A program made the translations under genes and the position numbers. Shown here one piece after another: positions 12,784 to 50,660 of a DNA stretch of 64,000 bases. Numbering within the stretch: the first letter of the stretch is position 1; each line of letters starts with the position of its first letter. The notes under the pieces are model-generated. The model worked only from the letters and a program-made list of their open reading frames with translations, ran no database searches and was not told the origin of the DNA. The DNA comes from Halobaculum sp. MBLA0147 (GTDB lineage: Archaea > Halobacteriota > Halobacteria > Halobacteriales > Haloferacaceae). The stretch spans positions 2,170,001 to 2,234,000 of the forward strand of contig NZ_JBGKAD010000001.1 of assembly GCF_041361345.1 (NCBI RefSeq), read 5' to 3'.

Positions 12784-14256
12784 ATGATCGGAATCGTCGG
12801 CGGCGGCCTCGCCGGCCTCGCGGCCGCCTACCGACTCCAACAACGCGGCTACGAGGTCACCGTCTACGAGGCCGGCGGTCCCGAGGCACTCGGTGGACTC
12901 GCACGCACCTACGAGACGAGCGGCGACGACATCGAACAGTTCTACCACCACCTCTCGAAGAACGAACGGACCATCGTCGAGTTGGCCGAGGAGATCGGCG
13001 TCGGCGACAGCGTCGAGTGGCGCGTCGGCGAGAACGCCTACTACGTCGACGGCACCGTCCACCCGATGGACACCCCGTGGCAACTGCTCGCGTTCCCCTA
13101 CTGGAGCCTCTACGACACCTTCCGACTCGGGATGCTCACCCTCGACGTGGACGTGCGCGGCGGCGTCCCGTCGTTCGACACCTACGAACGACTCGAAGAC
13201 TTCGAGGACCAGACCGCCGTCGAGTTCGCCCGCGAACACACCACGGAGAACGTCTACGAGACCTTCTTCGACCCACTGCTGGAGGCGAAGTTCGGCTCCC
13301 GGAAGGCAGACGTGAGTGCCGCGTGGCTCCTCGGCCGGATCAAGTTCCGCGGGGAACGCGACCTCCTCCGCGGCGAGATCCTCGGCTACTTCGAGGGCGG
13401 GTTCCGGACGTTCCTCGACGCCCTGATCGACGCCGTCGGCCGCGAGAACGTCGAGACACACGCCCGCGTGACCGACCTCGCGACGGACGACGGCGCCGTG
13501 GACTCGATCACCGTCGAGCGAGCGACCGAGCCCGTCGCTGCCGACGGCGGGGCGAGTGCGGCCGACGGCAGCGGTGTCGATACCGACGCGACCGACACCG
13601 GCGCGGTCGACACCGGCGCGGCCGGCTCCGGTGGCCCCGACGCGCGGTCGACCGGCTCCGGCGGTCCGCCGGCGACGGAGACCGTGACGGAGTCGGTCGA
13701 CGACCTCGTCGTGGCGACGATGCCGAACGTGTTGGAGTCGCTGACGGGGTACCCCTGCGAGGTGGACTTCCAGGCGTCCGTCTGTGCCGTCGTCACGCTC
13801 TCGGAGGGACTCACCGACACCTACTGGCTCAACGTCGCCGACGACGCCCCGTTCGGCGCGCTGATCGAACACACGAACTTCGTGCCACCGGAACGCTACG
13901 GCGGCGACCACCTCCTGTACCTCGCCAGCTACGTCCAAGACGAGTCGGCGTGGCTCTGGCAGGCCGACGACGACGAGGTCGAAGAGCGGTGGCTCGCGGG
14001 TGTCGAGGACCTGTTCCCGTCGTTCGACCGCGCGAGCGTGGAGTCGTTCCAGCTCGCTCGCGCCCCCCGCGCCGCCCCGATCTACGAGTGTGGGTACCTG
14101 GATCTCGTGGTGCCGTACGACCTCGGCGACGAGGTCGCGGAGGGACTGTACTACGCCGGGATGGCCTCCGAGGCACAGTACCCCGAGCGGTCGACGAACG
14201 GCGCCGTCCTCGCCGGCTACGAGTGTGCCGACCTGATCGACGAGCGCCGCGAGTGA
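12784..14256 (+). CDS. FAD-dependent oxidoreductase, amine-oxidase/protoporphyrinogen-oxidase-like
   Basis: A 490-residue flavoprotein. The dinucleotide-binding fold is at the very N-terminus (IGIVGGGLAGLAAAYRL, then VTVYEA) and a C-terminal FAD motif reads YYAGMASEAQYPERSTNGAV. This is the family of protoporphyrinogen oxidase, UDP-galactopyranose mutase-like and carotenoid/squalene-related oxidases. YHHLSKNERTIVELAEEIG and AAWLLGRIKFR occur in the archaeal relatives I recall, often linked to glycan or lipid genes. Residues about 249-305 are a Gly/Ala/Asp/Thr low-complexity insertion between the FAD and substrate parts. The substrate is unknown. Confidence 0.82.
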   Translation: MIGIVGGGLAGLAAAYRLQQRGYEVTVYEAGGPEALGGLARTYETSGDDIEQFYHHLSKNERTIVELAEEIGVGDSVEWRVGENAYYVDGTVHPMDTPWQLLAFPYWSLYDTFRLGMLTLDVDVRGGVPSFDTYERLEDFEDQTAVEFAREHTTENVYETFFDPLLEAKFGSRKADVSAAWLLGRIKFRGERDLLRGEILGYFEGGFRTFLDALIDAVGRENVETHARVTDLATDDGAVDSITVERATEPVAADGGASAADGSGVDTDATDTGAVDTGAAGSGGPDARSTGSGGPPATETVTESVDDLVVATMPNVLESLTGYPCEVDFQASVCAVVTLSEGLTDTYWLNVADDAPFGALIEHTNFVPPERYGGDHLLYLASYVQDESAWLWQADDDEVEERWLAGVEDLFPSFDRASVESFQLARAPRAAPIYECGYLDLVVPYDLGDEVAEGLYYAGMASEAQYPERSTNGAVLAGYECADLIDERRE

Positions 14257-14281
14257 GTGGGCGACGAGAGACGATCCGCCG

Positions 14282-14911
14282 TCACTCGGCCTCTCCGGTC
14301 TGTTCGTGCCACGAGTCGACGTGTGGGCCCTCGTTCTCGGGGCGGAACTGCTCGGGGTGTCGCCACCAGAAGTCGTCCGGATAGTAGTCGACGGCCACCA
14401 CGTCGAGTTCGTCTCTGTGGGTGGGACACTCGTGTGTGTACTTCTGGTACAGTACTGCGTCCACACCCTCGATACGTCCACGTAGTCGATCCGGAACCTC
14501 GTCGGCAGAGAGGAACTGAAGTGCGTACTCGATCCCGCCCCTCCGCGACAGCGCGTGCGATGTCTCGATACCGACTGGGTCGAGACAGAACGCGGTGTGT
14601 ACGTCGTCGGGGATGTCTCGGAGTAACCTCTCGATCCGCTCGACTAGTACGTCTTCGACAGCCAGTTCTCGCTTGCTAGTGATTCGGTCGAGGTCGCGAG
14701 CGAACTCCGCGCTCGGAGAGACCAGTTCCGACCCGTCCCGTCCAGTCTGCGCCCGCCACTCGCCGACGTAGCGGAGGTCTTGGATCGCGGCGACAGTGTC
14801 GGCGAGGTGCTGTTCGACACTCTCACCACGTCGAACGTGCTCTAGTCCCTCCGTCGCTCGCTCTCGAGCGTCGTCTATCAACCACTCGAAGGAGTCGCTC
14901 TCGTCGCTCAT
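14282..14911 (-). CDS. Hypothetical protein at the edge of the toxin island
   Basis: A 209-residue acidic soluble protein with no family I recognise. It has a helical N-terminal half (WLIDDARERATEGLEHVRRG) and a C-terminal part rich in Tyr, Trp and His (VAVDYYPDDFWWRHPEQF). A possible metal-binding set HECPTH lies near residue 164. Its base composition is lower in GC than the oxidoreductase next door, like the operon to its right. It is separated from that operon by 161 bp, so it may be an independent gene of the same island, for example another immunity or accessory protein; that role is a guess. Confidence 0.7.
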   Translation of the reverse strand: MSDESDSFEWLIDDARERATEGLEHVRRGESVEQHLADTVAAIQDLRYVGEWRAQTGRDGSELVSPSAEFARDLDRITSKRELAVEDVLVERIERLLRDIPDDVHTAFCLDPVGIETSHALSRRGGIEYALQFLSADEVPDRLRGRIEGVDAVLYQKYTHECPTHRDELDVVAVDYYPDDFWWRHPEQFRPENEGPHVDSWHEQTGEAE

Positions 14912-15072
14912 ATCTCCGTGGTTAACCGACAGATCGTCTTTACTCCCTCACCGATGGTACTGTGAGTGTAGCGAGGGATCGTCCCCGTCCGTCGGTTCTG
15001 CTCGTCGGGTCGTCGGCCCACGTAGTCGACCACCGTTCGGCGCGACTCACTGGCCGAACAGTGCACGTTCGA

Positions 15073-16098
15073 TCACCGCTCGGAGTGACCCGAACCGGTT
15101 CTCCGTCGCACTCGGTCCAGCGGTCCCACACCCGACAGCCACTCGTCACTCACGTCGCCGGCCGTTCCAGGTGCTCGGTACCCGTCGATCTCGGCGTCCG
15201 TCAGATCGTACCGGTCGTAGAACTCGGTGTGCTGGTAGCGGATCGTCTGTCTGAACAGGCCGTGTCCGAGCACGCGGAACGGGTCGGGTGGTTCGACTCC
15301 CAGTCGGAGGTACGCGTCTCGGACCTGACAGGTGAGGTGGTGTAACACCATCCCCTGGAAGACACCTGCCGACAGTGGCTCGTCGAGAGTCACTTCCGGT
15401 GGGAGGAGTTGGAGCCGAGCGTCTGTAGGCTCGTCTCGCGCGTGTGTTCGCTCCCCGGCCGTCGCCTCCTCGACACCCGTCTCCTCTCGCGTCTGGTAGA
15501 ACACGTCCGGGGTCGACACTTCGAGGATCGGGTCGCGTCCGTCGAGGTGCGTCTCGACACGCTCACTCAGTCCCTCGAGTACGTCGTAGTGGTCCGTCAC
15601 CCCACCCACGATGTCACTCGGGTCGAACGCTCGTGGGTCGTCCAGGTAGCTCTCGAAGTCGAGCCCGGTGAACAGATCCGCACGGACGACGAGCCCGCCA
15701 CCGGCGTCGTGGTACGGACCGTCGACGACGGGATCGACCGTCGGACACACCACACTGTTGTACTGCCGTCTGCAGGCGCCGAAGTGGTGCTCGAACGTCT
15801 CGACGTCGAGCAGGAACACGGCTCCGACGACGTGAGCGAGCCACTCGGGAGTCGAGCGGCGCTCGAACGTCGGGTACCCACGTTCCCGCTGGACGTAGTA
15901 CCGGGCGTAGTACTGTGCTCGTTCGATCCGGATTCTGTCGGCGTGTGTGTATCCAGATGGTCCCTTCGAGTAGCCATCCTGTTTGTAGCCGGTGATCTCG
16001 CCTGTTCTGTCGAGATCGATCAGGTGCTCTACGTCGGCGTGGTCGATAACACTGACCCCGACAACCTGCTCCCCCTCTCCAGTTATCTCTGCTCTCAT
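15073..16098 (-). CDS. Unknown protein, fourth gene of the DUF4157 operon
   Basis: A 341-residue soluble protein of unrecognised family. Charged and aromatic residues are frequent, with segments such as ERAQYYARYYVQRERGYP, WLAHVVGAVFLLDVETFEHH and DGPYHDAGGGLVVRADLF. Two conserved-looking His pairs (FEHHFG, MVLHHLT) could bind metal but no known motif is matched. Its ATG overlaps the upstream gene's TGA by 4 nt (ATGA), so it is translated as part of the operon that begins with the DUF4157 protein. Its C-terminus is basic (RRRTGSGHSER). A second toxin, an adaptor or an immunity protein are all possible; none is shown. Confidence 0.72.
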   Translation of the reverse strand: MRAEITGEGEQVVGVSVIDHADVEHLIDLDRTGEITGYKQDGYSKGPSGYTHADRIRIERAQYYARYYVQRERGYPTFERRSTPEWLAHVVGAVFLLDVETFEHHFGACRRQYNSVVCPTVDPVVDGPYHDAGGGLVVRADLFTGLDFESYLDDPRAFDPSDIVGGVTDHYDVLEGLSERVETHLDGRDPILEVSTPDVFYQTREETGVEEATAGERTHARDEPTDARLQLLPPEVTLDEPLSAGVFQGMVLHHLTCQVRDAYLRLGVEPPDPFRVLGHGLFRQTIRYQHTEFYDRYDLTDAEIDGYRAPGTAGDVSDEWLSGVGPLDRVRRRTGSGHSER

Positions 16099-16754
16099 CG
16101 GTTTCCTCGCTGACTCTGTGCTTGTTCTGGCTCTTCATCGGTCTCGAATGCATCGGAGCCGATCGTTTCGAAGAAGGCCTTCGCTCGCTCTTCGACACCG
16201 AGTGCTCTACACACTTCCCGTACGAGGTAGATGTCGCTTCGGTTGAGCTTGTCCTTACTCACCTTGATCGATCCACCGACCGCGATCGTGATCCCGAACG
16301 CGAGCCCCGTACTGAGGCCGAACTCGGTGGTCAACGTGTCGACGACAGTCTTCGTGGTACCGGCCGCAACTGCGTACTCCGCGTACAGATACGCCTCGCG
16401 GAGACGCTCCGAGTCTACGTCTTCGTCGGTGGTCAGAGGGGTCAAGTCCGCCTCTTCGAGACCGGTTCCGACCTCGTCCAACGAGACATCGCCACGGAGC
16501 AGATCACGACGTGTCTTGTCGACTCGCTGGACGTACACCTCGGTGTCGGCGAGTTTCTGAATCCCGAGTCGCTCATCACCCACGCTCTCAGAAGTACGGG
16601 AGTAGTTCGTATCGATGGTCTGTCCACCCGGCTCTACCGTATCGTTAGAGAACGGGCGGATCGTGACAGTCTCGTCAGGTGTCGACTCGCGGCGACCGAA
16701 GAACGGACTGTGTGTCGCCGACAGTGGGCACTCGGAGTGGCTCGAACTCTTCAC
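16095..16754 (-). CDS. Unknown protein, third gene of the DUF4157 operon
   Basis: A 219-residue protein with a disordered Ser/Thr/Glu-rich first 60 residues. A helical region follows with a moderately hydrophobic Gly-rich stretch (about 146-165, FGLSTGLAFGITIAVGG) that could be a membrane helix. The C-terminus (LVREVCRALGVEERAKAFFE) is amphipathic. No family is recognised. Its start overlaps the stop of the immunity-like gene by 4 nt and its stop overlaps the next start by 4 nt. The position between an immunity-like gene and another unknown suggests a function in the same cassette, perhaps a second immunity or a membrane partner. Confidence 0.72.
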   Translation of the reverse strand: MKSSSHSECPLSATHSPFFGRRESTPDETVTIRPFSNDTVEPGGQTIDTNYSRTSESVGDERLGIQKLADTEVYVQRVDKTRRDLLRGDVSLDEVGTGLEEADLTPLTTDEDVDSERLREAYLYAEYAVAAGTTKTVVDTLTTEFGLSTGLAFGITIAVGGSIKVSKDKLNRSDIYLVREVCRALGVEERAKAFFETIGSDAFETDEEPEQAQSQRGNR

Positions 16755-17494
16755 GTCTCAGTCTCCTCCTCTGTGGACTCCAGTATCTCGTACAGGGACG
16801 ACACGGGGTCCTGATCTGCTGGGCGAGGCTCGTCTCGCTCTACCACTCGTTGAATTGCCCAACCCGTCTCCCGCTCGTGAGTCAGCATATCGAGGAGTTC
16901 CATCAGCGTATCCTCACGTTGTGTCTCCTCTTCGAGCGGAAGTTCCCAGACGTGCTCGAGGAGACGACACACCACCCTCGCCTCGTTTCGAACTGTCGGG
17001 TCATCGAGAAACCGGTCGATCACCTCTTCGAGACCGAGTTCCGGCCGAAGAACGTCCTCGTCTTCGATCCGCTCCAGTTCGTGTGTGTTCCCGATGTCGT
17101 ACTCCTCTAGTAGCTGTCGTACGCGAGTCGAGAGAATCAGTCGTTCCCCGAAGTCCCCAATCTCTTCGTCGTACACGTTCCCGATACCGAAGTCGTCACG
17201 ATAGCCGGTCCCAGTCACCTCCAAGCCGTACACTGGAGGGATAGTCTCGTTCGGGTGCTCGTGCTCGAAGTGATCGGTCGTCTCGACAGAGATGTCCGAC
17301 AGTTCGTACCCGGTGAGCGACGAGTCGTTGAGCCCGTCACCGAGAGCCTTCGTAATCAAGTAGCCTTCCTCCCACTGGACCAGATCGTCACCGGGCCACC
17401 ACTCTACGTGTGGAGACTCGATGGGTCCGTCGAGATCGTATCCGCTTCTGTTCGGGTCAACGTACACCGGCTCGATGTAGAAGTACTCAGTCAC
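16751..17494 (-). CDS. Imm43-like putative immunity protein
   Basis: A 247-residue acidic protein. The N-terminal half resembles Imm43-type immunity proteins: an initial YFYIEPVYVD strand, WWPGDDLVQ near residue 35, EGYLITKALGDGL near 45, GYELSDISVETTDHF near 63 and YGLEVTGTGYRDDFGI near 90. That order, with a Trp-Gly-Asp-Asp motif and a late Asp-Asp-Phe, is how I recognise the family; no search was run. The C-terminal half is helical and very acidic. It starts inside the last codons of the DUF4157 gene (8-bp overlap), exactly where a cognate immunity gene would sit. Confidence 0.7.
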   Translation of the reverse strand: MTEYFYIEPVYVDPNRSGYDLDGPIESPHVEWWPGDDLVQWEEGYLITKALGDGLNDSSLTGYELSDISVETTDHFEHEHPNETIPPVYGLEVTGTGYRDDFGIGNVYDEEIGDFGERLILSTRVRQLLEEYDIGNTHELERIEDEDVLRPELGLEEVIDRFLDDPTVRNEARVVCRLLEHVWELPLEEETQREDTLMELLDMLTHERETGWAIQRVVERDEPRPADQDPVSSLYEILESTEEETET

Positions 17495-18941
17495 TCTCAG
17501 ATCCCTCCGTGTACATCTCCGGGAGGAAGTGGTGTCCGAGTTCTCTGTCTAACTCTTCGACCCTCTCCAAGAGATACTCTCTGATCTCTCTCCGTAGTCG
17601 CTTCACCTCTTCGGGAACCTCTGGCGACTCGACACGGGATGCTGCTTCACGGGGAGAGAGTTCCTCTGGATCGTCGCTGACGTGTCTTCGATACGCTCTC
17701 GACCACTTCCGCTCTAGCTTTCTGAGTTCTGCATCTCGGTACACCCGATTCCACTCGACACGAATGACACTCTGGTGTAACTCCGCCTGCACGTCGTTCG
17801 GGATGCCTCTGAGGTTCTCGACGGAGTGCATCTCTCGGGGGGAGAGCAGTCCTGGGAAGAATGGTCTACCTCCTGGTTGAATGATCTGCTGTTCGATGGC
17901 GTGGTGAACGTTTCCGACCAGGTTCTCTTCGAGTTCCTCGACATCGTAGAGTTCTGGGTAGGCCGCTTCGAACACGTCGCGGTGCACCCCATCGGCAGTT
18001 GGATCTCTTTCGTCGCTGATTTCCCCGATTTCCAGCTGCTCGTCTCCAGTCACCTCCGCAGGGTGTGCGAGGTTCTCGTCTGGTGCAGCGTCGATCTCCT
18101 CGGTCGCCGACTCACGCGCTTCCAACAGTTCTCTGTACTCCTCGTACTTCCGCCGCTGGAGCAGGAGTGCGACGCTGTCACCGGTGTCGAGATTCGCCGA
18201 TGCGTCGGGACCCGGATCGGAGACCTGCTCGCCCGTCGGGAGTCTCGCCACACCGTCTGTCTGTTGGCGGACGTGCGCTAATTCGTGGGCGAGGACGTGT
18301 TGCCCCTCCGCGGACTCAGGGTCGTACTCGCCAGCGCCGAAGGCGACGTGGTTGCCGACGGTGAACGCCCGCGCGTTGATCTGCTCCGCTGCCGCGGCCG
18401 CCTTCGGACCGGTGTGGATCCGTACGTCACCGAGCGAGTCGCCCATCCGCTCTTCGACGGCACGCTGGATCGAGGTGTCCAACGGTCGGCCGGGTGAGGA
18501 GATCACCTCACGCACGGAGTCGGGAACGCCAGCGTCTCCGTCGGGACCACGACGCCGGTCTCTGTTGACTTTGCCGGTGTTGTCCATCCGCGAGAGCCGG
18601 TTGAAGTGCTCGATGTCCCAGGGAATCGGCGTCCCCTTCCGGTCGCGGAACCGCTGCATCTTGGTCTTGTGGCCCATCGCGGCGATGGGCATCCCCTCGT
18701 CGATCCACCGGAGAACCTGCCCGCCGTACCCCTTCTCTAGCCGCTGGAGTTCCTGGAGTTCGTCGACGCTCGAGATCTCCCGACCGTAGTACTCCTCGAT
18801 GTCTTCCTTCGTCGTCGGGCCAACGGTAGTCGGACCCACGTCCGCACGCGACGGCCACCGCTGCGGGCCGTCGCTCTCGCCGGACTGGTCACTGTCCGTC
18901 TCGGTCCTCTTTCCTCGATCACGCAGTGCCTGGTATCCCAT
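17487..18941 (-). CDS. DUF4157 (eCIS-core) protein with C-terminal nuclease-like toxin region
   Basis: A 484-residue modular protein. Residues 45-150 form a leader region (YYGREISSVDELQELQ, GHKTKMQRFRDRKGTPIPWD). Residues 150-228 are a DUF4157 domain with HVLAHELAHVRQQ containing HELAH at 219-223 and the usual VRIHTG and INARAFTVGNHVAFG motifs. After a charged linker, residues 320-405 carry VHHAIEQQ (H346-H347), MHSVENLRGIPN (N376) and ELHQS (H389), then EWNRVYR. This HH...N...H pattern resembles His-Me-finger (HNH/Endo VII-like) toxin nucleases. DUF4157 marks many effectors of extracellular contractile injection systems. It heads a four-gene operon; the Imm43-like gene overlaps its end. Confidence 0.78.
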   Translation of the reverse strand: MGYQALRDRGKRTETDSDQSGESDGPQRWPSRADVGPTTVGPTTKEDIEEYYGREISSVDELQELQRLEKGYGGQVLRWIDEGMPIAAMGHKTKMQRFRDRKGTPIPWDIEHFNRLSRMDNTGKVNRDRRRGPDGDAGVPDSVREVISSPGRPLDTSIQRAVEERMGDSLGDVRIHTGPKAAAAAEQINARAFTVGNHVAFGAGEYDPESAEGQHVLAHELAHVRQQTDGVARLPTGEQVSDPGPDASANLDTGDSVALLLQRRKYEEYRELLEARESATEEIDAAPDENLAHPAEVTGDEQLEIGEISDERDPTADGVHRDVFEAAYPELYDVEELEENLVGNVHHAIEQQIIQPGGRPFFPGLLSPREMHSVENLRGIPNDVQAELHQSVIRVEWNRVYRDAELRKLERKWSRAYRRHVSDDPEELSPREAASRVESPEVPEEVKRLRREIREYLLERVEELDRELGHHFLPEMYTEGSESD

Positions 18942-19113
18942 CGTCCCTTGCCGGTTGGTGTGTCTGCTCGTAACTTGATTCTTCCCACTGAGTGTGGATT
19001 CAGTTGTAGATCACGACCAACCGTCACTGGGCGACGACTGCGAGTCACTACACACTGACAGCTAATCCCAACACAACCACAGCTATTAACAACCAGCGAG
19101 CACAACACCAAGA

Positions 19114-19185
19114 CACGACACTGCGGGGTCGTCACTGCTGAAAAAGTGGCAGGGTGCTGGAACACCCCACCTCCGCAGTGTCGTG
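19114..19185. repeat. 13-bp inverted repeat beside the toxin island
   Basis: CACGACACTGCGG (19114-19126) is repeated inverted at 19173-19185, with a 46-nt spacer that itself holds GGGTG/CACCC. It lies in an AT-richer gap (18942-19198) between the DUF4157 gene and the rightward hypothetical gene. The gap also has TATA-like CTATTAAC near 19083. It could be an operator or terminator, or a boundary of the island. Confidence 0.5.
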
Positions 19186-19198
19186 GGCTACCACGACA

Positions 19199-19648
19199 AT
19201 GTGTTCGAACGATTCTCCGTCTGAAAAGGATGACGGGACGACCGAAGTACAGCCACTGCTCGACAGCTACGATACCCACCTGGAGACACTGCGCTTGCTC
19301 CCACTGCCGCAGTACCGCAGTAGGGAACTCCACGCCGCGACGGAGGCGATCCGGGACAGACTCGCAGCCAGCGGCTTCGTTCCCCCGACGCAACTCCAAC
19401 ACCTCCTGTGCGTCGTCGCCGAGGCGATCGACGACGTACGCGCCGCCGCGACGGGCGAACCCGACAGACTCCCCGAAGCGCCACGCTACCCGGTCGGCAC
19501 ACCACGCGACGAGTACGCGATGACACCCGACGAGCGCGAGACGGTACTCGACGGACTCACGAGCCTCCAGTTCACACTCGTCGAGACACCGACCCTCCCC
19601 GACGGCTGGAGCGAGCGACTCCGCGAGGGGGACCGGCCGACGGCGTGA
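19199..19648 (+). CDS. Hypothetical helical protein
   Basis: A 149-residue acidic soluble protein of unrecognised family, mostly alpha-helical: LDSYDTHLETLRLLPLPQYR, LHAATEAIRDRLAASGFVPP and LQHLLCVVAEAIDDVRAAA. Its GC content returns to the chromosomal level, so it is probably outside the island on the left. The ATG is chosen because the few codons upstream fall in the inverted repeat. The function is unknown. Confidence 0.6.
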   Translation: MCSNDSPSEKDDGTTEVQPLLDSYDTHLETLRLLPLPQYRSRELHAATEAIRDRLAASGFVPPTQLQHLLCVVAEAIDDVRAAATGEPDRLPEAPRYPVGTPRDEYAMTPDERETVLDGLTSLQFTLVETPTLPDGWSERLREGDRPTA

Positions 19649-19841
19649 TCCCGACGCCGGAGACGGGTCGACACCGGCGGCGTCACACTGGGTGACGACC
19701 GTGCACCACCCTGTCGCCACTTCCGCACCACCGCCCATCCAACCACGGACGCGTCTCGCCGACCCCACCGACGCGACCCGCTACAGTCCGCCACGCCGGG
19801 AACACAAACGTTTCAACCACGCCACGGCTCCAGTCGTGTAG

Positions 19842-21242
19842 ATGTTCGACGACACGCCGGGGCGTGGCCGCCTCGCACGCGGGCTCGCCCTCCTGGTGGT
19901 GGTGTCGCTGTTCGCGCCCGCCGGGGTCGCTGCCCTCTCCCCCGACTCGGGGGGAACACCCGGCCAGGTCGGGCTGGAGCCGGGGACGGTGACCCAGCCG
20001 GCGGACAACGCGACCGTGGTCGGGATCCAGGGGTTCCACTTCCAGGGACAGGGGTCGACGAAGAAGCCCGCGCGTGTCGTCTCTGCGGGCCCGCAGGGTG
20101 AGACGAACTGGGTGTTCGACGGCGGGCCGTACGACGCGACGTGGTTCTACGACGTGGACCCACTCGCGAACGGGAACTTACTCGTCGTCTCGACGAACCC
20201 CGAGGGGACGCTGGTGATGGAGTTGAACCGCTCGACGCGGGAAGCCGTCTGGAAGGAGCGGTTCGACATGAAGGACACCCACGACGTGGACATGCTCCCG
20301 AACGGGAACCTCGTGATCGCGAACATGCGCAACTGGGACAACGAGACCCAGGTCAGCGACGACCGGATCGTGATCTACGACCGCGAGAGCGAGGAGTTCG
20401 TCTGGGAGTGGACGTTCCGGAACCACTACCCCAACTCGACGGACGGCGGCTTCTCCGAGGACTGGACCCACGTCAACGACGTGGACCGGATCGGTGACGG
20501 CCGGTTCCTCCTGTCGCCGCGCAACTTCGACCAGGCGATCGTCGTCGACCGCGAGAGCAAGGAGATCGTGGAGCGACTCGGCGAGGACGGCGACCACGAG
20601 ACGATGTTCGAGCAACACAACCCCGACTGGCTGGTGAGCGAGGCGGGGAACCCGACGATCCTCGTGGCCGACTCCGAGAACGACCGTGTCGTCGAGTACA
20701 CGAAACGCGACGGAGAGTGGGAGCGGATCTGGACCGTCGGCACCGGCCAGCTGTCGTGGCCGCGCGACGCCGACCGCCTGCCGAACGGGAACACGCTGAT
20801 CACGGACTCGCTGAACCACCGCGTGATCGAGGTGACGCCACGGGGTGAGATCGTCTGGGAGTACTACGCCACCTGGGGCGCCTACGAGGCGGAACGGCTC
20901 GGGACCGGCGACGAGTCGAACGGCCCGACGATGACCGACCAGGGTGTGTCGGGGTCGTACCGCCTCACCGGGAGTGCGGGCCTGATCGAGGGCACCGGCG
21001 ACACGAACACCTTCGCGGCGACGGTCCAGAACACCTTCGCGGGGACGCCGGTCGGCGGCGTCGCGACGGAGTTCGCCGTGACGTGGTCGCACGTCACCCC
21101 GTGGGTCCAGCCCGTCTGGATGGACTCGTGGGCGTTCGCGTCGCTGGCGGCCGGCCTCCTCGTTGCGCTGGCCTGGGGCCTCGTCGAACTCGTGCTCGCA
21201 CGACGGCGGCTGGTCGAGTTCGTGCGTGGCGTGGCCGGGTGA
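19842..21242 (+). CDS. Arylsulfotransferase-family (ASST-like) exported protein
   Basis: A 466-residue protein with an N-terminal signal helix (about 12-32) and a C-terminal membrane helix (about 432-455), so it is probably anchored outside the cell. Between them are beta-propeller-like repeats with the recurring N-G-N motif: DPLANGNLLV, DMLPNGNLVI, DRLPNGNTLI, plus HDVDM and NHRVIEV. This is the arylsulfotransferase (ASST)/NHL-like pattern. Known ASST enzymes move sulfate between phenolic compounds, but the catalytic His has not been pinpointed here, so a binding role is also possible. A TATA-like ACGTTTCAAC lies about 30 nt upstream. Confidence 0.72.
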   Translation: MFDDTPGRGRLARGLALLVVVSLFAPAGVAALSPDSGGTPGQVGLEPGTVTQPADNATVVGIQGFHFQGQGSTKKPARVVSAGPQGETNWVFDGGPYDATWFYDVDPLANGNLLVVSTNPEGTLVMELNRSTREAVWKERFDMKDTHDVDMLPNGNLVIANMRNWDNETQVSDDRIVIYDRESEEFVWEWTFRNHYPNSTDGGFSEDWTHVNDVDRIGDGRFLLSPRNFDQAIVVDRESKEIVERLGEDGDHETMFEQHNPDWLVSEAGNPTILVADSENDRVVEYTKRDGEWERIWTVGTGQLSWPRDADRLPNGNTLITDSLNHRVIEVTPRGEIVWEYYATWGAYEAERLGTGDESNGPTMTDQGVSGSYRLTGSAGLIEGTGDTNTFAATVQNTFAGTPVGGVATEFAVTWSHVTPWVQPVWMDSWAFASLAAGLLVALAWGLVELVLARRRLVEFVRGVAG

Positions 21243-43501: not shown

Positions 43502-45820
43502 TCACGACCCCCGACGCAGTCGCCCGAGCACCGGCAGGTCGTCGTGAACCAGTCCGTCGACCGTCTCGACGACGCGTTCGGCCTCGGTCGCGGAGACGCC
43601 GGCGCCGTAGTGGGCGCGCTCGAACGTCCGAGCGACGCGCTCGGCGTCGCCGTCGAGTCCGCGGTGTCGCATCGCGGCGACGTACTGCCGTGGCGTCTCG
43701 CCGGGCCGTCGCTGGCGGTAACGGCGCTCTGCGAGCCCTTCGAGTCGCCGGTAGGCTCGTTCGACGGCCGCGTCCGGCTCGTCGAACGACGGCTGGTACA
43801 CCAGCCAGAGGAACCGGTAGGCACGACTCGTGAGGCCGAACCGTCGCGCACTCGCGACCGCACCCACGAGTGCGGCGAGTCCCAACACCGCCTCGCGGCG
43901 CGTCGGGAGCGGACTGCCGTCGTCGGACTCGCTCTCGCCGGTCCCGGTGGTCGTCACACCCAACTCCGCACCGAAGTCGCCGGGGTCGGCACTCGCGTTA
44001 CTCGCCGTCGCCGAGCCGGCGATCTGCGCGAGTCCACGCGGGGTCCCGGGGTCACCCGGGTCCGTCGCGGGCGTCTCGTCGACGGTCACCGTCGGCGGCG
44101 GCGTGGTGTACACGCCGTCCGCGGAGCCGTTCAGGTCGACCCCCGACGTGCCGCTGGCGCGAGCCGACTCGACGGCGGACCGCTCGGCCGCACTACGCTC
44201 CGTCGCGGGTGTCGGGTCGAACCGCACCCACCCGACGTCCGGGAAGTACACTTCGACCCAGGCGTGTGAGTCCAACCCGCGGACGACGTACTCCTCGGGC
44301 CCGACGCGCTGCCCGGTCGTGTAGCCGGTGACGAACCGTGCCGGGATCCCCTGGGTGCGCAGCATCGTCACCATCGCCGTCGCGAAGTACGTACAGTAGC
44401 CCGCGTCTCGCTCGAACAGGAACGTCTCCGCGATGTTCCCGCCGGGGTTGGGGACGTCCAGCGAGTACTCCTTCGTCGACTCCAGGTACCGCTCGACGGC
44501 GACCGCGGCGTCGTACGGTGTCGACGCACCCGCCTCGGAGAGCACCTCTGCCGTCCGCTCGTCGACGCGCTCGGCGGTGCTGTCCGGTGTCCGCGTGTAC
44601 CGGGCGTACAACTCGGACGGGTAGTCGGTGCCGGCGCGGCGGAGTTCGCCGGTCGTGTACTCCGGTCGCTCGGAGACGACGGTGTACGTCTCGTTGTCCT
44701 GCAGCGACGTGGCGGGTGCGAACCCGTCGTTGCTCGTCACCTGTGTGATCTCCCGTGTCTCGCCGCTGATGCTCGTCGGCCGCCACAGCGCCGGGATCGC
44801 GCCGAACGACCCCTTCACCGTGTACGTCTGCTCGACGGAGACGCTCTCACCCGGCGGCCCCTCTACCGTCCCGGTGTACTGTGTGGACTCGCCGCTGCGG
44901 ACCCAGCCGCTGCCGGTGTAGCGGTCGTACGAGCCGACGCGCCAGTACCCCGGCTCCTCGGACTCGACGGTGAACCGCACCTCCGGCGAGAGGGTGATGC
45001 TCCCGAGCACGGACACTCGGTCGCTGTTGGCGACGAGACTCGACTCGACGGACGGCGACGGGCCGCCCGGCACGACCGGGTTCGCGCCGCCGCCGACCAC
45101 CGTCAGCGAGGTGACGACGACCATCGCGGCGACGATCACCGCGACGGTGTCCCACTGCGCCTCCAGTCCCCGCAGTCCGGCCGTCGAGAGCCCGGCGAGC
45201 CCGAGGGTGAGCGCGCCGCCGACCGCGGCGGCCAACGCGAGACCGGCACCGGCGTCGCTCGTGAGGACGAAGAAGGCGGTCGTCGCGGTGGCGACCGTCG
45301 CCGCCCAGACGTGCCGTCGCCGGCCGACGAGGTACGCGACGAGGAACGTCGGCCCGGGGACGAGCGTCACCGCCCACGTCCCGGCGTTGATCAGCCGCAG
45401 GACCGAGAGTCCGGACACCAGCGCGAACACGTCCTGCAGGACGCGGCTGGCGGTGAACAGCGCCCGTTGACTCTCCGGGACGGAGAGGAAGTACGCGACG
45501 AGCCCGAGCGCGAACCCGCCGACGGCCACCGCGAGCGCGGTTCGCTCGCGCAGCTGGGTGGCCGCGACGAGCCCCAGCGTGGCGGTCACGCCGACCTCGA
45601 GCAGGAGGAACTCACCGCCGCCGACCACGTCGGTGATCCCGTAGAAGGCGGCGACGAACGCCCCCGTGGCGAGCACCACGCCCACCGTCGGCGGCGACCG
45701 CACCGCCCCCAGAACCGCCGACCCATCGTCGTCCGTCTCCGGTTCCGTGGTCCGCCGTCCGCTGTGGGTCCTCCCGCCGGTCGACACACGACTCCCGGGC
45801 TCCGGGCGTGCGCGGCTCAC
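43502..45820 (-). CDS. Membrane transglutaminase-like protein (TgpA/DUF3488 type)
   Basis: A 772-residue protein. Seven or so membrane helices fill residues 35-240; an extracellular transglutaminase-like domain follows with the triad Cys in GYCTYFATAMVTMLRTQGIP, His in LDSHAWVEVYFPDVGW and Asp in VRFDPTPA. A further membrane helix lies near 645 and a DUF4129-like helical tail closes the protein (ERRYRQRRPGETPRQYVAAM). The GTG start overlaps the DUF58 gene's stop (GTGA). Together with DUF58 and MoxR genes this is the widespread MoxR-DUF58-transglutaminase cluster, thought to mature surface proteins or peptides. Confidence 0.88.
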   Translation of the reverse strand: MSRARPEPGSRVSTGGRTHSGRRTTEPETDDDGSAVLGAVRSPPTVGVVLATGAFVAAFYGITDVVGGGEFLLLEVGVTATLGLVAATQLRERTALAVAVGGFALGLVAYFLSVPESQRALFTASRVLQDVFALVSGLSVLRLINAGTWAVTLVPGPTFLVAYLVGRRRHVWAATVATATTAFFVLTSDAGAGLALAAAVGGALTLGLAGLSTAGLRGLEAQWDTVAVIVAAMVVVTSLTVVGGGANPVVPGGPSPSVESSLVANSDRVSVLGSITLSPEVRFTVESEEPGYWRVGSYDRYTGSGWVRSGESTQYTGTVEGPPGESVSVEQTYTVKGSFGAIPALWRPTSISGETREITQVTSNDGFAPATSLQDNETYTVVSERPEYTTGELRRAGTDYPSELYARYTRTPDSTAERVDERTAEVLSEAGASTPYDAAVAVERYLESTKEYSLDVPNPGGNIAETFLFERDAGYCTYFATAMVTMLRTQGIPARFVTGYTTGQRVGPEEYVVRGLDSHAWVEVYFPDVGWVRFDPTPATERSAAERSAVESARASGTSGVDLNGSADGVYTTPPPTVTVDETPATDPGDPGTPRGLAQIAGSATASNASADPGDFGAELGVTTTGTGESESDDGSPLPTRREAVLGLAALVGAVASARRFGLTSRAYRFLWLVYQPSFDEPDAAVERAYRRLEGLAERRYRQRRPGETPRQYVAAMRHRGLDGDAERVARTFERAHYGAGVSATEAERVVETVDGLVHDDLPVLGRLRRGS

Positions 45821-46890
45821 GCCGCCACCTCCCGCCCGTCGTCCGGTCGCGGGGCGGTGTGGTCGGTCGAGAGTCGCGTGGCCGGTGCGCGGTCCGCACG
45901 CAGCGACTCGAAGGTCGTCTCGCTGTCGCCGACCGTGATCGTCGTCTCCGACTCCGTCCCGAACACGACCACGTCGGCGTCCTCCGTCCGGACGCGACCG
46001 GGACCGACGGTCGCGAGTCGTTCGAGCAGCTGGGTTCGACTCCCGCGGTCGGACCCGGCGGTGACGGCGCCGCCGGGCAGCGTCACCTCGACGGGGACGC
46101 CGTCCTCGATCAGCGTGAGCGCCAGCGAGGCGGTCGCCGAGGCCATCCCGTCGGCACCGCCGGCCTCTGCGCCGGCCGCCAGCGTCACCGCCTCCGTCTC
46201 CGCCTCCGCGGCGAACTCCTTGACGATCAGTTCGTCGCGTTTCGCGGTCGTCTTCCAGTGCACGTCCCGCAGCGAGTCGCCGTCCGTGTACTCGCGCAGG
46301 CGGTCGAACTCGGAGCGCTCCTCGTGGATGCCCGTCTCGTGGAGCGCACGCAGGTCGCGACGCGCCCACCGCGCGATGGCGAACAGTTCCGGGTACGCCA
46401 ACACGGTGTCGGTCCCGTCCGTCTCCAACTCCCGCTCCAGCAGTCCGAGCACGTCGCGAGCGGCGACGGTCGCCGGACCGAGAACGTGCTCACCGCGGGC
46501 TTCGTACGTCACCTCGTAGGTGACGGGTTCGCTCCCGACGACGGTCTCCACCGTGGTATCCTCGGCGGAGACGCCGTCCGGCAGCGTCTCCGTGACCCGA
46601 CCGACGAACGGCCGCGCGAGCGGTTCGGCGGTCCCGCCGACGCCGCTGCGTTCCACGAAGTCCAGTTCCACGGTCCCGCCGCGACCGACGTGGTCGTCGC
46701 CGGGCGTCTCCCGGACGGCCTCGGGGGCCGTCGCCCGCGACACTTGGAAGTACGCGGCGACCAGCGCCACGACGCCGGGGACCACCAGCGCGTTCAGCGC
46801 TCGCGGGCCGTACAGTGCCGCGGAGCCGACCGCGAGCACGCAGCCGACGAGCACCGCCTTGCCGCGTCGTGTGAGTCGCACGTCCACCAC
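45817..46890 (-). CDS. DUF58 domain protein
   Basis: A 357-residue protein with two N-terminal membrane helices (GKAVLVGCVLAVGSAALYGP and ALVVPGVVALVAAYFQ). A beta-rich segment follows, then the DUF58 signature FDRLREYTDGDSLRDVHWKT near residues 193-212 and a von Willebrand A-like C-terminal part. The start is one of three in-frame GTG codons; the first is used, but the one three codons on is as likely. The stop overlaps the transglutaminase-like gene and the gene begins just after moxR. It acts with the MoxR ATPase. Confidence 0.88.
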   Translation of the reverse strand: MVDVRLTRRGKAVLVGCVLAVGSAALYGPRALNALVVPGVVALVAAYFQVSRATAPEAVRETPGDDHVGRGGTVELDFVERSGVGGTAEPLARPFVGRVTETLPDGVSAEDTTVETVVGSEPVTYEVTYEARGEHVLGPATVAARDVLGLLERELETDGTDTVLAYPELFAIARWARRDLRALHETGIHEERSEFDRLREYTDGDSLRDVHWKTTAKRDELIVKEFAAEAETEAVTLAAGAEAGGADGMASATASLALTLIEDGVPVEVTLPGGAVTAGSDRGSRTQLLERLATVGPGRVRTEDADVVVFGTESETTITVGDSETTFESLRADRAPATRLSTDHTAPRPDDGREVAA

Positions 46891-46891
46891 C

Positions 46892-47857
46892 TCACTCGAC
46901 CGGGACGGACTCGAGGGCGGCCTCGGTCACGTCGAGTCCCGTCTCGCTGCCCGTCCGCGGTCTGATCCGGTGTGGGAACACGGTCTGGGCCTCCGTCTGT
47001 ACGTCGTCGGGGATCACGTAGCCGCGGCCGTCGACGACCGCTCGGGCCTGCGAGGCGCGGACGAGCGCGATACTCCCACGCGGACTGACGCCGAGTTGGG
47101 CGTTCTGGCGAGTGTAGTTGGCCAACTCCGTCACGTACGACCGGATCGGCTCGGAGACCTCCACGTCCCCGACCGTCTCGCGTGCACTCTGTAGACCGGC
47201 GGTCGTCGCCACCGGCTCCAACGACTCGATCGGGTGGTGGCCGGCCGTCCGGTCGAGCATCACGGTCTCGTCGTCGACGTCCGGGTAGCCGAGCCGGAGT
47301 TTCTTCATGAAGCGGTCGATCTCCGCCATCGGGAGTTCGTACGTTCGCCCCGGCTCCACGTCGTTCTGGGTGGCGATGACGGTGAACGGCTCCGCCAACT
47401 CGCGCGTGTCGCCGTCGACGGTCACCTGTGTCTCCTCCATCGCCTCCAGCAACGCCGACTGTGTCTTCGGCGGTGCGCGGTTGATCTCGTCGCCCAACAC
47501 GACGTTGGCGAACACCGGTCCCGGGCGGAACTCGAACTCCTGGCTCTTCTGGTTGAACACGTTCGTCCCGGTCACGTCCGCCGGGAGGAGGTCCGGAGTG
47601 AACTGGACCCGTTTGAACTCGCAGTCGACCGAGCGGGCGATCGACCGCGCGAGCATCGTCTTCCCGACACCCGGGACGTCTTCCAAGAGGAGGTGACCGC
47701 GCGCGAGGACGGTGACGAGGATGTGTTCGATGGCGTCGTCGTGGCCGACGATCACGTCGGCGACGTTGTCTGCGACCCGCGCGACGAGGTCTGCCGCCTC
47801 GTCGACGGGGAGTGCGGTGCGCTCGTCGGCGTCGATGTCGACATCACTCTCGCTCAT
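46892..47857 (-). CDS. moxR: MoxR-type AAA+ ATPase
   Basis: A 321-residue AAA+ ATPase. Walker A lies in EDVPGVGKTMLARS and Walker B in VVLGDEINRAPPKTQSALLE, followed by sensor 1 ATQNDVE and the arginine-bearing C-terminal lid (LGVSPRGSIALVRASQA). MoxR proteins are chaperone-like ATPases that work with DUF58/VWA partners. It is the first gene of the leftward operon; its ATG follows an acidic N-terminus. The downstream DUF58 gene starts immediately after its stop. Confidence 0.93.
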   Translation of the reverse strand: MSESDVDIDADERTALPVDEAADLVARVADNVADVIVGHDDAIEHILVTVLARGHLLLEDVPGVGKTMLARSIARSVDCEFKRVQFTPDLLPADVTGTNVFNQKSQEFEFRPGPVFANVVLGDEINRAPPKTQSALLEAMEETQVTVDGDTRELAEPFTVIATQNDVEPGRTYELPMAEIDRFMKKLRLGYPDVDDETVMLDRTAGHHPIESLEPVATTAGLQSARETVGDVEVSEPIRSYVTELANYTRQNAQLGVSPRGSIALVRASQARAVVDGRGYVIPDDVQTEAQTVFPHRIRPRTGSETGLDVTEAALESVPVE

Positions 47858-48230
47858 TGGTCTCTGGGGGGACCCTCCCCCACGTGTGTCTTGTGGGATC
47901 GAGTCACAGACGAGCACTGGGGACGGAGCTACCTAACACTGCCGGGACACGGCGTCGGACACTCCAGACCGTCCACACGCCGCGTCGGACGCGCTCGCCC
48001 ACAGCCGGTGGTCTCGCGGTGGTCGACGCGACCGTCGCGTCTGGGTCTGCGTCCGAGTGTCGCACCTGGGTCTGCGCCCAGGTGTCGCGTGTCACGACGT
48101 TGTCACTCTTCCGTCGCGAGCGCGTCAGACGCGTGGCTGCCGTCCGTCGGACGTGTCGCCGTCGGGCGGCCGTCGGGAGGTACCCCTAAGTGGATTCACT
48201 CACAGACACTGGTAACTCGGTGGAAACGAC
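47858..48230. other. 373-bp divergent gap with hairpin and short repeats
   Basis: No gene is supported. TGGGGG/CCCCCA around a GACCCT loop (near 47867) forms a hairpin just before moxR. A 25-bp direct repeat (48038-48062 and 48063-48087, core CTGGGTCTGCG) lies in the middle. The right edge holds CCCTAAGTGG, a weak promoter for the methylase-like gene. Confidence 0.5.
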
Positions 48231-50660
48231 GTGAGTTCGACAGAGCAGGTTGGGTTCGTCGAGCGGGTGGTGAGCGCGTGTGAACGCGTCGAGTCGTCGC
48301 TGGGTCGGGGGAAGACCGGGCCGGCGACGGCGACGGCGATCCGCGAGGCGGTGTTCGAGGACGTGTTGGGGTACGACGCCGCGGCGGCGAGTCAGTCCGG
48401 CGGCGTCGTCCGGTTCGCCGTCGACGGGCGGGTGGCGGTCGTCCTCGCCGCGGCGGGGCGGGGAGCGGACGCGACGGCGGTCGTCGAGCCCGCCTTCGCC
48501 GCCGCGGCCGGGACCCCCGCTCGGTTCGTCGTCGCCGCCACGCCGTCGCGCCTGCTCGTGTACGAACGGCTGGACGGGGACGCCGCGGCGGGTGATCCGG
48601 TCGGTGCGGCCGAGTCGGGCGACGCGGCCGACGCGAGAGCGGCGGACGGCGACGACCCGGTGGAGACGATCCGTGGTACACCGGCGCGTCGTCGCGCGGA
48701 CGTGTCGCTCGCGGAGACGGTGGCCGCGGCGCGTCGCGGCCCGCCGTCGGAGACGCTGGACCCCGCTCGCCAACTGCAACTGGCGAAGTTGCGCGTCCTC
48801 CGCGTCGACGCGCTCACAGACGGGACACACGACGAACGCGGCGGGGGGGAGCCAGCGGTCGACCCCGCCGACGACGGTGGGTCGGACTCCGCCGCCGGCG
48901 ACACGGAGACGGGAACTGCCGGAAGCGACGGCGACACAGAGGCGAGTGCGGGCGACGGTGGGGGACCGGAGGGAGCAGTGGACGACACCACGCCGGCGGT
49001 GACTGCGGACGACACAATGTCGGAGACGACCGCGACCACCACGCCGGAGACGGACGCCGAAGGCGACGCGCTCGTGGCGACGGCGCTCGACTGTCTGGAG
49101 CAGGAACTGGTCCCGGCCGTCGGGCGCGCTCACGAGACCGTCTCGGCGGAGATCGACGACTTCGAGGGCGACCGCGAGGCGGCGACGACCGCGATCGAGC
49201 ACGCGCTGGCGAGCGCGGAACCCGACGCCGCCGGCCCCGCACGCCGTCGCCTCGTCGAGGTCGACGCGGCCGCCGAGCCCGCCAGGCGGCTCCGTGCCGC
49301 CTACGGCTCGTGGGTGCGCGGCGCGCGTCGCACCGGGTTCACGCCTGGCGAGAACCGTCGTGCGTTCGTCCGCGTCACCGCCGCCGCGCTCCTCGACGAC
49401 CTGTTGCTCGGCCGAGCACTGGCGGCCAACGGTGTCGTCCCGGAGCTGTCGGCCGGCGAGGGACGGCGGCGACTCCGCGAGACGTGGGCGGCGTCGGGGC
49501 TCGACCGCGACGCGAGCGACGTGATCGCCGCGGCCCGCGAGGCACGACGGCCGACCGTCGAACGCGCGACCCCGGACCCCGCCGACTGGCTGCTCGCACA
49601 CGCCGGGAGCGAGACGGACACGGGACAGGAGCGGGTCGCGGACGCGCTCGCCGCGACGATGGACCGGCTCGCTGACTGTCCGTTCCCGTCGTCACCGGCC
49701 CGAATCGCGGCGGCGTACGACGATCTCCGTCGGCAGTGGGACGTGCCCGCGGTCGCGACCGGCGACGATCCACCTGCCGTGTCGGGGACGGACCCGACGA
49801 CGGACACGCCGTCGTTCCCGGAGGCCGTCTGTGACCGACTGTGGGGCGACGAGGGTGTCCGCGGTGCGGCGCCGGCGGTCGTCGACCCGGCGTGTGGCGA
49901 CGGGCGGTACCTCGTCGCCGCCGCGGCGCGCCTCCGCGAGCGGCTGGCCGACGCCTCCCCGACGGCACGCCTACGAGCCGTCCGCGGGTCGCTCACCGGG
50001 GTCGACCCGGACCCGCTGGCGTGTCGCGTCACGGAGACGCGGCTGTGGCTCGAACTGCTGCCGGACCTCGTCGCGGCCACACGCGAGTCGTCGGACCTCG
50101 CGCTGGAGCCGCTGCGTGTGTTCCGGACGGACCCGTTGGCGGCGGGTCACGACGGCCGCCCACCGGCACCGGACGCGCTGACCGGGCGGCGGTACGACGT
50201 CGTGCTCGGGCGGTTCCCGACGGTGTTGCGGCGCGCGGTTCCGGACGGTCCGGCTGCGGCGGCGTACGCCGACTACGAGACGGCGTACTACACCTACGAC
50301 CTCTCGGCGCTGTACCTCGAACGCGTCGCGGACTGGCTCGCTCCCGGCGGCCGACTCGCCGCCGTCGTCGCCGGGCGGTTCCGCGACACCCGGTTCGGCG
50401 AGAAGACGCGCGAGCGACTGCCGGGGTGGTACGACCTCGCGGAGCTGCGCGAGCTCCCGGGGTCGGCACCCGGCGGGTCGCCGCTGCTCGTGGTCGCGCG
50501 CCGGCGCGAGTCGACGGCGACCGATCCGGCGGCACGGCGCCCGGCGGACGGGCACGTCACCGTCGCGGCCGGCCTCGACGCCGCTGGCGAACAACTCCCG
50601 GCGGCGGTGTTCGACGCCGACGAGTGGCCCGTCGGAGCGGACGGCGATTCGGACGGGTGA
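48231..50660 (+). CDS. Degenerate Eco57I-like DNA methylase homologue
   Basis: An 809-residue protein. The N-terminus (AIREAVFEDVLGYD, VVRFAVDGRVAVVLAAAG) resembles restriction-type N-terminal domains. A helical middle and two acidic low-complexity stretches (about 120-150 and 200-265) follow. The C-terminal third has an adenine-methyltransferase fold: motif I VVDPACGDGRYLV near 551 and GVDPDPLACRVTETRLWLEL. The catalytic motif NPPY is replaced by GRFP in YDVVLGRFPTVL near 657. The later context (DLSALYLERVADWLAPGGRL) is still Eco57I-like. It is probably unable to methylate DNA by the usual route. The start is GTG. Confidence 0.7.
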   Translation: MSSTEQVGFVERVVSACERVESSLGRGKTGPATATAIREAVFEDVLGYDAAAASQSGGVVRFAVDGRVAVVLAAAGRGADATAVVEPAFAAAAGTPARFVVAATPSRLLVYERLDGDAAAGDPVGAAESGDAADARAADGDDPVETIRGTPARRRADVSLAETVAAARRGPPSETLDPARQLQLAKLRVLRVDALTDGTHDERGGGEPAVDPADDGGSDSAAGDTETGTAGSDGDTEASAGDGGGPEGAVDDTTPAVTADDTMSETTATTTPETDAEGDALVATALDCLEQELVPAVGRAHETVSAEIDDFEGDREAATTAIEHALASAEPDAAGPARRRLVEVDAAAEPARRLRAAYGSWVRGARRTGFTPGENRRAFVRVTAAALLDDLLLGRALAANGVVPELSAGEGRRRLRETWAASGLDRDASDVIAAAREARRPTVERATPDPADWLLAHAGSETDTGQERVADALAATMDRLADCPFPSSPARIAAAYDDLRRQWDVPAVATGDDPPAVSGTDPTTDTPSFPEAVCDRLWGDEGVRGAAPAVVDPACGDGRYLVAAAARLRERLADASPTARLRAVRGSLTGVDPDPLACRVTETRLWLELLPDLVAATRESSDLALEPLRVFRTDPLAAGHDGRPPAPDALTGRRYDVVLGRFPTVLRRAVPDGPAAAAYADYETAYYTYDLSALYLERVADWLAPGGRLAAVVAGRFRDTRFGEKTRERLPGWYDLAELRELPGSAPGGSPLLVVARRRESTATDPAARRPADGHVTVAAGLDAAGEQLPAAVFDADEWPVGADGDSDG

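Follow-up and report, generated by a model that had tools for sequence, protein, structure and literature searches.

A putative pseudoenzyme derived from a Type IIG-like restriction-modification enzyme at a conserved MoxR locus in haloarchaea

An 809-aa protein encoded in a haloarchaeal genome descends, as judged by profile comparisons, from a Type IIG-like restriction-modification enzyme. It is probably a domesticated pseudoenzyme, in which the scaffold has been selected for a non-catalytic binding role without the nuclease, methylase and specificity functions. Its gene occupies positions 48231–50660 (plus strand, GTG start) of the analysed 64,000-nt stretch of DNA, hereafter the window, which lies on a 3.0-Mb contig of a 4.29-Mb genome. 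The open reading frame is genuine, its coordinates stand as first described, and its start agrees with that of three orthologues.

The presumed ancestral type carries a nuclease, a helical spacer, an Eco57I methylase and a TaqI_C specificity domain, all in one chain. Eleven full-length relatives, which we take to be Type IIG enzymes, were used for comparison with two groups of orthologues, families A and B. According to hhalign, family A (11 orthologues) matched the 11 full-length enzymes with a probability of 100 and E = 9.1e-74 over 676 columns, demonstrating shared ancestry over the nuclease, spacer and methylase. Family B without the interrupted copy from genome G098 gave E = 9e-71 over 746 columns. 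The relation to Eco57I-like enzymes and the descent from a restriction-modification enzyme, both proposed in the preliminary description of this DNA, are thereby upheld. The Pfam Eco57I profile (PF07669) matched residues 588–728 of the window protein with E = 6.6e-4 and 20.2 bits, below the gathering score of 25.3; in the genome search, the window frame scored 22.7 bits, or 25.9 together with neighbouring matches in the frame (threshold 25.3). Three orthologues scanned in the same way scored 24.9, 20.8 and 21.9 bits, all below the gathering score. The window protein was the sole Eco57I match at E ≤ 0.001 in its own genome.

An HSDR_N-type domain, N6_Mtase, Eco57I and TaqI_C were found in both full-length relatives scanned (L064 and L068), whereas TaqI_C, the target recognition domain, was not detected in the window protein or in any of the three scanned orthologues. 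Families A and B align with the 11 enzymes except at the C-terminal specificity part, and roughly 400 aa of the C-terminus are absent from the window protein. Accordingly, family A proteins are 729–809 aa long versus 1155–1231 aa in the full-length enzymes, some of which are cut at locus ends. The window protein shares domain order and homology with Type IIG enzymes (L064, L068 and, for the N-terminal fold, DrdV, PDB 7lvv) but, unlike them, lacks the nuclease triad, FYTP, NPPY and the specificity domain. With NCBIfam and PADLOC, the motif I region partially matched profiles of PglX, MAD2 and Type II methylases (best 49.4 bits). The likeness to BREX PglX/BrxX methyltransferases around motif I (BREX_2_MTaseX, E = 1.2e-6) does not extend to membership, as the window protein scored 26.6 bits against an NCBIfam equivalog cut-off of 400 for PglX. 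Against PDB sequences, the window protein had only weak hits, led by one of E = 1.1 and including BseCI at E = 1.5.

The N-terminal domain (residues 9–200, positions 48255–48830, plus strand) is predicted to adopt a nuclease-like fold without the catalytic residues. The AF2 model of the whole protein, built from three sequences, was poor (mean pLDDT 48.9), with residues 11–110 modelled confidently (block-mean pLDDT 77–92). The best VIA-align match, over residues 9–200, was chain 7lvv_D of the DrdV-DNA complex (rmsd 3.0, 128 of 146 residues) with a Z of 8.6, and values near 8 are only middling by the tool's own note; the following rows were mostly long helices at residues 292–384 with Z ≤ 7.8. 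Foldseek, run with the whole model, had no hit reaching E = 0.001. An orthologue's methylase segment folded poorly in AF2 (mean pLDDT 40.5, four sequences); therefore, assignment of the methylase fold rests on the sequence profiles. Between the two enzymatic parts lie an acidic low-complexity linker (residues 201–280, 48831–49070, plus strand), largely missing in orthologues, and the helical spacer leading from nuclease to methylase (residues 281–540, 49071–49850, plus strand), near the end of which FYTP (motif X) is lost.

Catalytic and SAM-binding sites were counted in 15 orthologue rows (11 of family A, four of family B) and in 11 full-length enzymes. The copies of G065 and G097 were omitted because they are interrupted, and L049 (a 716-aa frame with NPPY) and L053 (a fragment) were left out of the enzymes. 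The nuclease D/E/K triad was lost in 15/15 orthologue rows and kept in 11/11 enzymes, which places the orthologues outside the active PD-(D/E)xK nucleases. In the window protein, the triad positions are V59 (D), A73 (E) and A75 (K), at 48405–48455 (plus strand) in the alignment with full-length relatives. All 11 A rows read V/A/(A or V) at these positions, and all four B rows read (S or E)/(A or T)/(T or A). FYTP and NPPY showed the same distribution: each was lost or replaced in 15/15 orthologue rows and kept in all 11 enzymes.

The preliminary description had NPPY replaced by GRFP. The absence of NPPY is confirmed, but the register has to be shifted: in two multiple alignments, and in an independently made profile comparison, the GNPPY of the enzymes falls opposite GRFPT in the window protein, so the replaced tetrapeptide is RFPT (residues 661–664, 50211–50222, plus strand) and GRFP begins one residue early. 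The identical register in the alignments and the profile also rejects a frame or alignment error as the source of the change. In family A, motif IV reads APPA in four rows, APPT in two, RFPA in two, and SPPA, AFPA and RFPT in one row each; in family B it reads DAPT in three and DPPN in one. Motif IV of amino-methyltransferases is (N/D/S)PP(Y/F/W), and none of the 15 rows has the aromatic residue, which excludes them from this class. Because the letters vary among the rows, GRFP is rejected as a new conserved motif, and the conserved feature is instead the loss of the Asn/aromatic pair.

Motif I, VVDPACGDGRYL (residues 550–561, 49878–49913, plus strand), is retained, and its DPA(V/C)GDG core occurs in 15/15 rows, in keeping with the glycine loop of the SAM-binding methyltransferase fold. 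The motif III Asp (D634, 50130–50132, plus strand) is kept in 13 of the 15 rows and in 10/11 enzymes. The motif II Asp is lost in 10/11 A rows, remaining in the window protein and 4/4 B rows. Of GRFP and motif I, whose joint conservation had been put forward as a check, motif I alone is conserved; a retained SAM-binding motif is a correct observation, but to call SAM binding kept is too generous given the loss of motif X in 15/15 rows and of the motif II Asp in most A rows. Where they can be read, the interrupted copies of G065 and G097 share this motif I and likewise deviate at motif IV. The preliminary description captured only part of the loss, as the disappearance of the nuclease triad, of FYTP and of the C-terminal specificity region had gone unnoticed.

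Family A also has residues of its own. Seventy-seven residues, many of them arginines, do not vary among the 11 A rows and occur at those columns in none of the 11 enzymes; R559, R599, R604, R667, R668, R716 and R718 belong to this set. Part of the 77 is accounted for by relatedness of the rows and high GC, and high GC may have caused part of the arginine gain.

In the initial set of 60 genomes, orthologues turned up in three apart from the window genome (E = 3.7e-101 to 3.3e-115, 46–49% overall identity), so the observation is not a chance one. A profile search of 170 genomes of the taxonomic family detected orthologues in 17, of which 14 are intact, and separated them into families A and B at one chromosomal position. 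Family A comprises 11 intact copies, from the window, Halobaculum (g5: G007, G034, G064, G066, G067, G068, G070) and genus g16 (G018, G137, G138), and one interrupted copy (G065). Family B is confined to genus g3, with intact copies in G095, G096 and G099 and interrupted ones in G097 and G098. The remaining matches at E ≤ 1e-10 in the 170 genomes were mostly other Eco57I-type frames; weaker frames of this type, 1180–1323 aa long, were among the matches listed in G034, G066 and G098. In the window's own genus, one of four genomes carries the gene; of the three without it, two are fragmentary.

Across 392 evenly sampled genomes of the order, a search with a cut-off of 1e-30 yielded seven matches outside the family, in six genomes, all open frames of 1162–1255 aa with NPPY (7/7). 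The NPPY-bearing relatives, namely the 11 enzymes of 1155–1231 aa and the 716-aa frame L049, sit away from the MoxR locus. An NPPY-bearing homologue at that locus, which would have pointed to simple decay in the window, was not encountered among the orthologues. One such relative, L045, comes from the window's own genus (genome G003): it is 1231 aa long, has intact NPPY and EGK residues and is not at the MoxR locus.

Clear remnants were rare: among 40 MoxR-flanking loci without the gene, one was found, in the Halobaculum genome G063 (L075). This truncated remnant of residues 7–71 directly adjoins MoxR, and its best piece has 86% identity over 36 residues; it is a loss caught in progress. Of the nine non-carriers grouped with the carriers in the MoxR tree, G063 alone yielded a clear remnant; single weak matches in G002 and G003 (E about 3e-4 each) were not trusted as remnants. 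In the complete genome of G065 (H. litoreum; L063/L121), the gene is split into several frames, representing either a real pseudogene or a sequencing error. Two scans of viral contigs, each with two short peptide patterns and thus a weak test, found no relative and lend no support to a mobile or viral gene.

In all 17 carriers, the gene is divergent from a MoxR-DUF58-transglutaminase operon. In the window, this operon lies on the minus strand and consists of a MoxR-type AAA ATPase (46892–47857, start at 47857 inferred), an adjoining DUF58 protein (45817–46890; PF01882, E = 2.4e-7) and a transglutaminase with TgpA_N, Transglut_core and DUF4129 (43502–45787, start inferred). The MoxR portion searched against profiles (46892–47827) matched AAA_3 with E = 1.3e-60 and 203.5 bits, a far better fit than bpMoxR, the MoxR domain of MoxR-vWA-beta-propeller ternary systems, for which it scored 28.0 bits against a curated score of 27. 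The opposite flank was compared over 8 kb in 15 of the 17 carriers by translated coverage at E = 1e-20. Five flank types were distinguished (window; G018; G137; g3; Halobaculum with G138), with coverage of 0.00–0.16 between types and 0.55–0.98 within Halobaculum and G138. Thus, the MoxR junction is fixed across carriers, whereas the other flank has turned over. In the g16 genome G138 (L119), 55–79% of the 8-kb downstream flank is also present in Halobaculum genomes; the two remaining g16 genomes differ in this respect, which suggests that G138 keeps the ancestral flank.

A short element, CCTAACACTGCC, is located at 47932–47943, roughly 75 nt upstream of where MoxR is inferred to start, and has the form CCTAACTCTGCC in most relatives. 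With one mismatch allowed, CCTAACTCTGCC was present in 13/15 carriers and in 12/40 loci without the gene. It is rejected as a regulatory element specific to the pseudo-restriction-modification gene, since its occurrence at gene-free loci makes it more likely to belong to MoxR, and it is probably part of the MoxR promoter or leader.

In the methylase-domain tree, families A and B formed one side of a branch with support of 100/99.5. When the tree was rooted on other Eco57I-type enzymes, A and B fell inside the intact enzymes; the root branch was weak (92/45), enzyme L070 was wrongly included in the outgroup and the program warned of long branches. A longer, unrooted tree resolved A, B and the enzymes as three groups, which also allows one origin. 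The long stems of A and B could be attracting each other. Their shared chromosomal position supports a single origin independently. A quick MoxR tree placed 17/17 carriers in one group of 26 rows (SH-aLRT 85), with nine non-carriers, including G063, inside it. Taking tree and shared position together, one inactivated ancestor followed by repeated loss is the simplest account.

Selection was assessed from codon comparisons. The dN/dS ratio was 0.28–0.47 within Halobaculum (g5), 0.22–0.25 within g16 and 0.24–0.38 in family B, and higher, 0.38–0.59, between g5 and g16. In the same pairs, MoxR had a dN/dS of 0.04–0.30 and is far more constrained than the pseudo-restriction-modification gene. In the 24 closer pairs listed, changes at third codon positions, which are 86–96% GC, outnumbered those at first or second positions 1.6- to 4.1-fold. 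When the observed substitutions were placed at random, amino-acid changes exceeded those observed in 200/200 trials for each of seven close pairs (7/7). Some random trials were also free of stops, so the absence of stops alone is not decisive. By all three measures (dN/dS, third positions and random placement), the relatives are under purifying selection despite the missing catalytic residues.

Among the A rows, the window copy itself diverges most (branch length 1.01), and it has no close orthologue. It gave a dN/dS of 0.55–0.67 at a dS of 0.8–1.0 and a third-position excess of only 1.3- to 1.5-fold. At the columns invariant in the other ten A rows, it keeps 183/259 residues (71%), compared with 93–100% for the other rows when each was left out in turn; motif I and the core are retained. 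Given this divergence and low column retention, constraint may be relaxed in the window. The suggestion that the protein is repurposed is accordingly supported by the purifying selection in the relatives; for the window's own copy it is more tentative.

We propose that the ancestor of the window's genus, Halobaculum, g3 and g16 would have carried a Type IIG-like protein beside the MoxR-DUF58-transglutaminase operon, and that this ancestor lost the nuclease triad, FYTP, the catalytic NPPY and the specificity domain. The remaining scaffold seems to have been kept under purifying selection in most lineages tested. With the catalytic residues missing, the product is expected to have neither nuclease nor DNA methylase activity, in agreement with the non-methylating descendant suggested earlier; the loss of NPPY in 15/15 rows points the same way. 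It would now most likely be a non-catalytic binding protein, whose scaffold holds or regulates a partner, by analogy with METTL14 and METTL3, and whose motif I loop possibly still binds SAM or a different nucleotide. As a partner, the neighbouring MoxR ATPase system is the best, though tentative, candidate, favoured because the MoxR junction is the preserved flank; this linkage may also reflect passive descent. The protein is accessory and not essential, as several species lack the gene. We regard as rather unlikely the more specific possibility that it is an accessory subunit of the MoxR-DUF58-transglutaminase machine, of a new archaeal kind, with the SAM/DNA cleft re-lined for another anionic ligand or a partner, as the family-A-specific arginines might indicate. 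If true, a selfish defence gene would have turned into a housekeeping regulator.

Recent decay confined to the window genome, already doubted in the preliminary description, is rejected, because the losses are common to the 15 rows compared; the high GC invoked there is not evidence against decay. A different matter is a functionless relic in slow decay, shed lineage by lineage. The remnant at the exact locus in G063, the interrupted copies in G065, G097 and G098, the nine non-carriers (G063 among them) within the carrier group of the MoxR tree, the fast divergence of the window copy and the much stronger constraint on the adjoining MoxR (dN/dS 0.04–0.30) would all fit such a relic. Nevertheless, we consider it unlikely in view of the 14 carriers with intact frames, the third-position bias, fewer amino-acid changes than in any of 200 random placements for 7/7 pairs, the 77 family-specific invariant residues and catalytic losses common to all 15 rows.

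An antiviral role, as a DNA-binding sensor or decoy without catalysis, would suit the restriction-modification origin; inactive REase domains have been proposed as nucleic-acid sensors (PMC12839542), MoxR-vWA systems have been tied to conflict (PMC12839542, PMC7159879), and the window MoxR passes the bpMoxR curated score by one bit. This explanation is decidedly unlikely, however, since the specificity domain is missing, the same MoxR operon rather than a variable defence island accompanies the gene in 17/17 carriers, the two pattern-based viral-contig scans found no relative, and MoxR fits AAA_3 far better, with DUF58 and transglutaminase neighbours. Finally, the protein could still be SAM-dependent with an altered acceptor site, methylating something other than the exocyclic amino group of DNA. 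DPAxGDG in 15/15 rows, the motif III Asp in 13/15 and Pro-Pro at motif IV in some rows (APPA, SPPA, APPT, DPPN) are compatible with this; the loss of motif X in 15/15 rows and of the motif II Asp in 10/11 A rows, the single motif IV Pro common to all rows and the failure to recognise any catalytic-looking replacement motif make it very unlikely. The domesticated, non-catalytic scaffold is thus the reading that we retain.

A known parallel is METTL14, the pseudo-methyltransferase partner of METTL3, which has EPPL for DPPW, has lost the aromatic residue and plays a structural, non-catalytic role (PMC5023411); a methylase fold can thus end up as a binding protein. The window protein resembles METTL14 in having a methylase fold with the motif IV aromatic lost, and a non-catalytic role is suggested by this analogy. 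Unlike the METTL14/METTL3 pair, the carriers have no second subfamily match stronger than about 1e-13 among the matches listed. A METTL3-like active sibling was accordingly rejected: the six candidates scored per genome included no second match above that level in a carrier, and the window genome contributes a single Eco57I match.

Neither pseudoenzymes nor decayed restriction systems are new. Halobacteria have orphan methyltransferases, methylase-derived genes without cognate restriction (PMC6471742), which are named there as methyltransferases, whereas the window protein has lost the catalytic motif. Inactive restriction-modification genes have been noted in Haloferax volcanii (PMC5867850), and inactive nuclease domains in BREX-related systems have been proposed as non-catalytic sensors (PMC12839542). 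The covered parts of the haloarchaeal and archaeal restriction-modification literature (PMC6471742, PMC10609329, PMC5867850) contain no such family, the main texts of PMC6471742 and PMC10609329 do not mention Halobaculum, and the top-ranked literature matches include no description of the family. As far as searched, there is no description of a Type IIG scaffold that is truncated, inactivated at both sites and under selection, and that keeps a fixed chromosomal position. Work on orphan methylases from decayed restriction systems has treated them as methylases. In the present family, neither the two catalytic sites nor the DNA-reading domain survive, and several genera keep just the scaffold at a single locus. 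If confirmed, this would be a clean case of full restriction-enzyme domestication in archaea, tying a methylase-derived protein to the little-understood MoxR-DUF58-transglutaminase system. It also carries a warning for annotation, as the name 'Eco57I methylase' may fall on a protein unable to methylate.

Elsewhere in the window, the GC-content falls to 58% at 16–18 kb, compared with about 70% around it (region 14000–20000). An open reading frame in this low-GC region (17487–18941, minus strand) encodes a metalloprotease-like HELAH stretch, and its product presumably resembles DUF4157.
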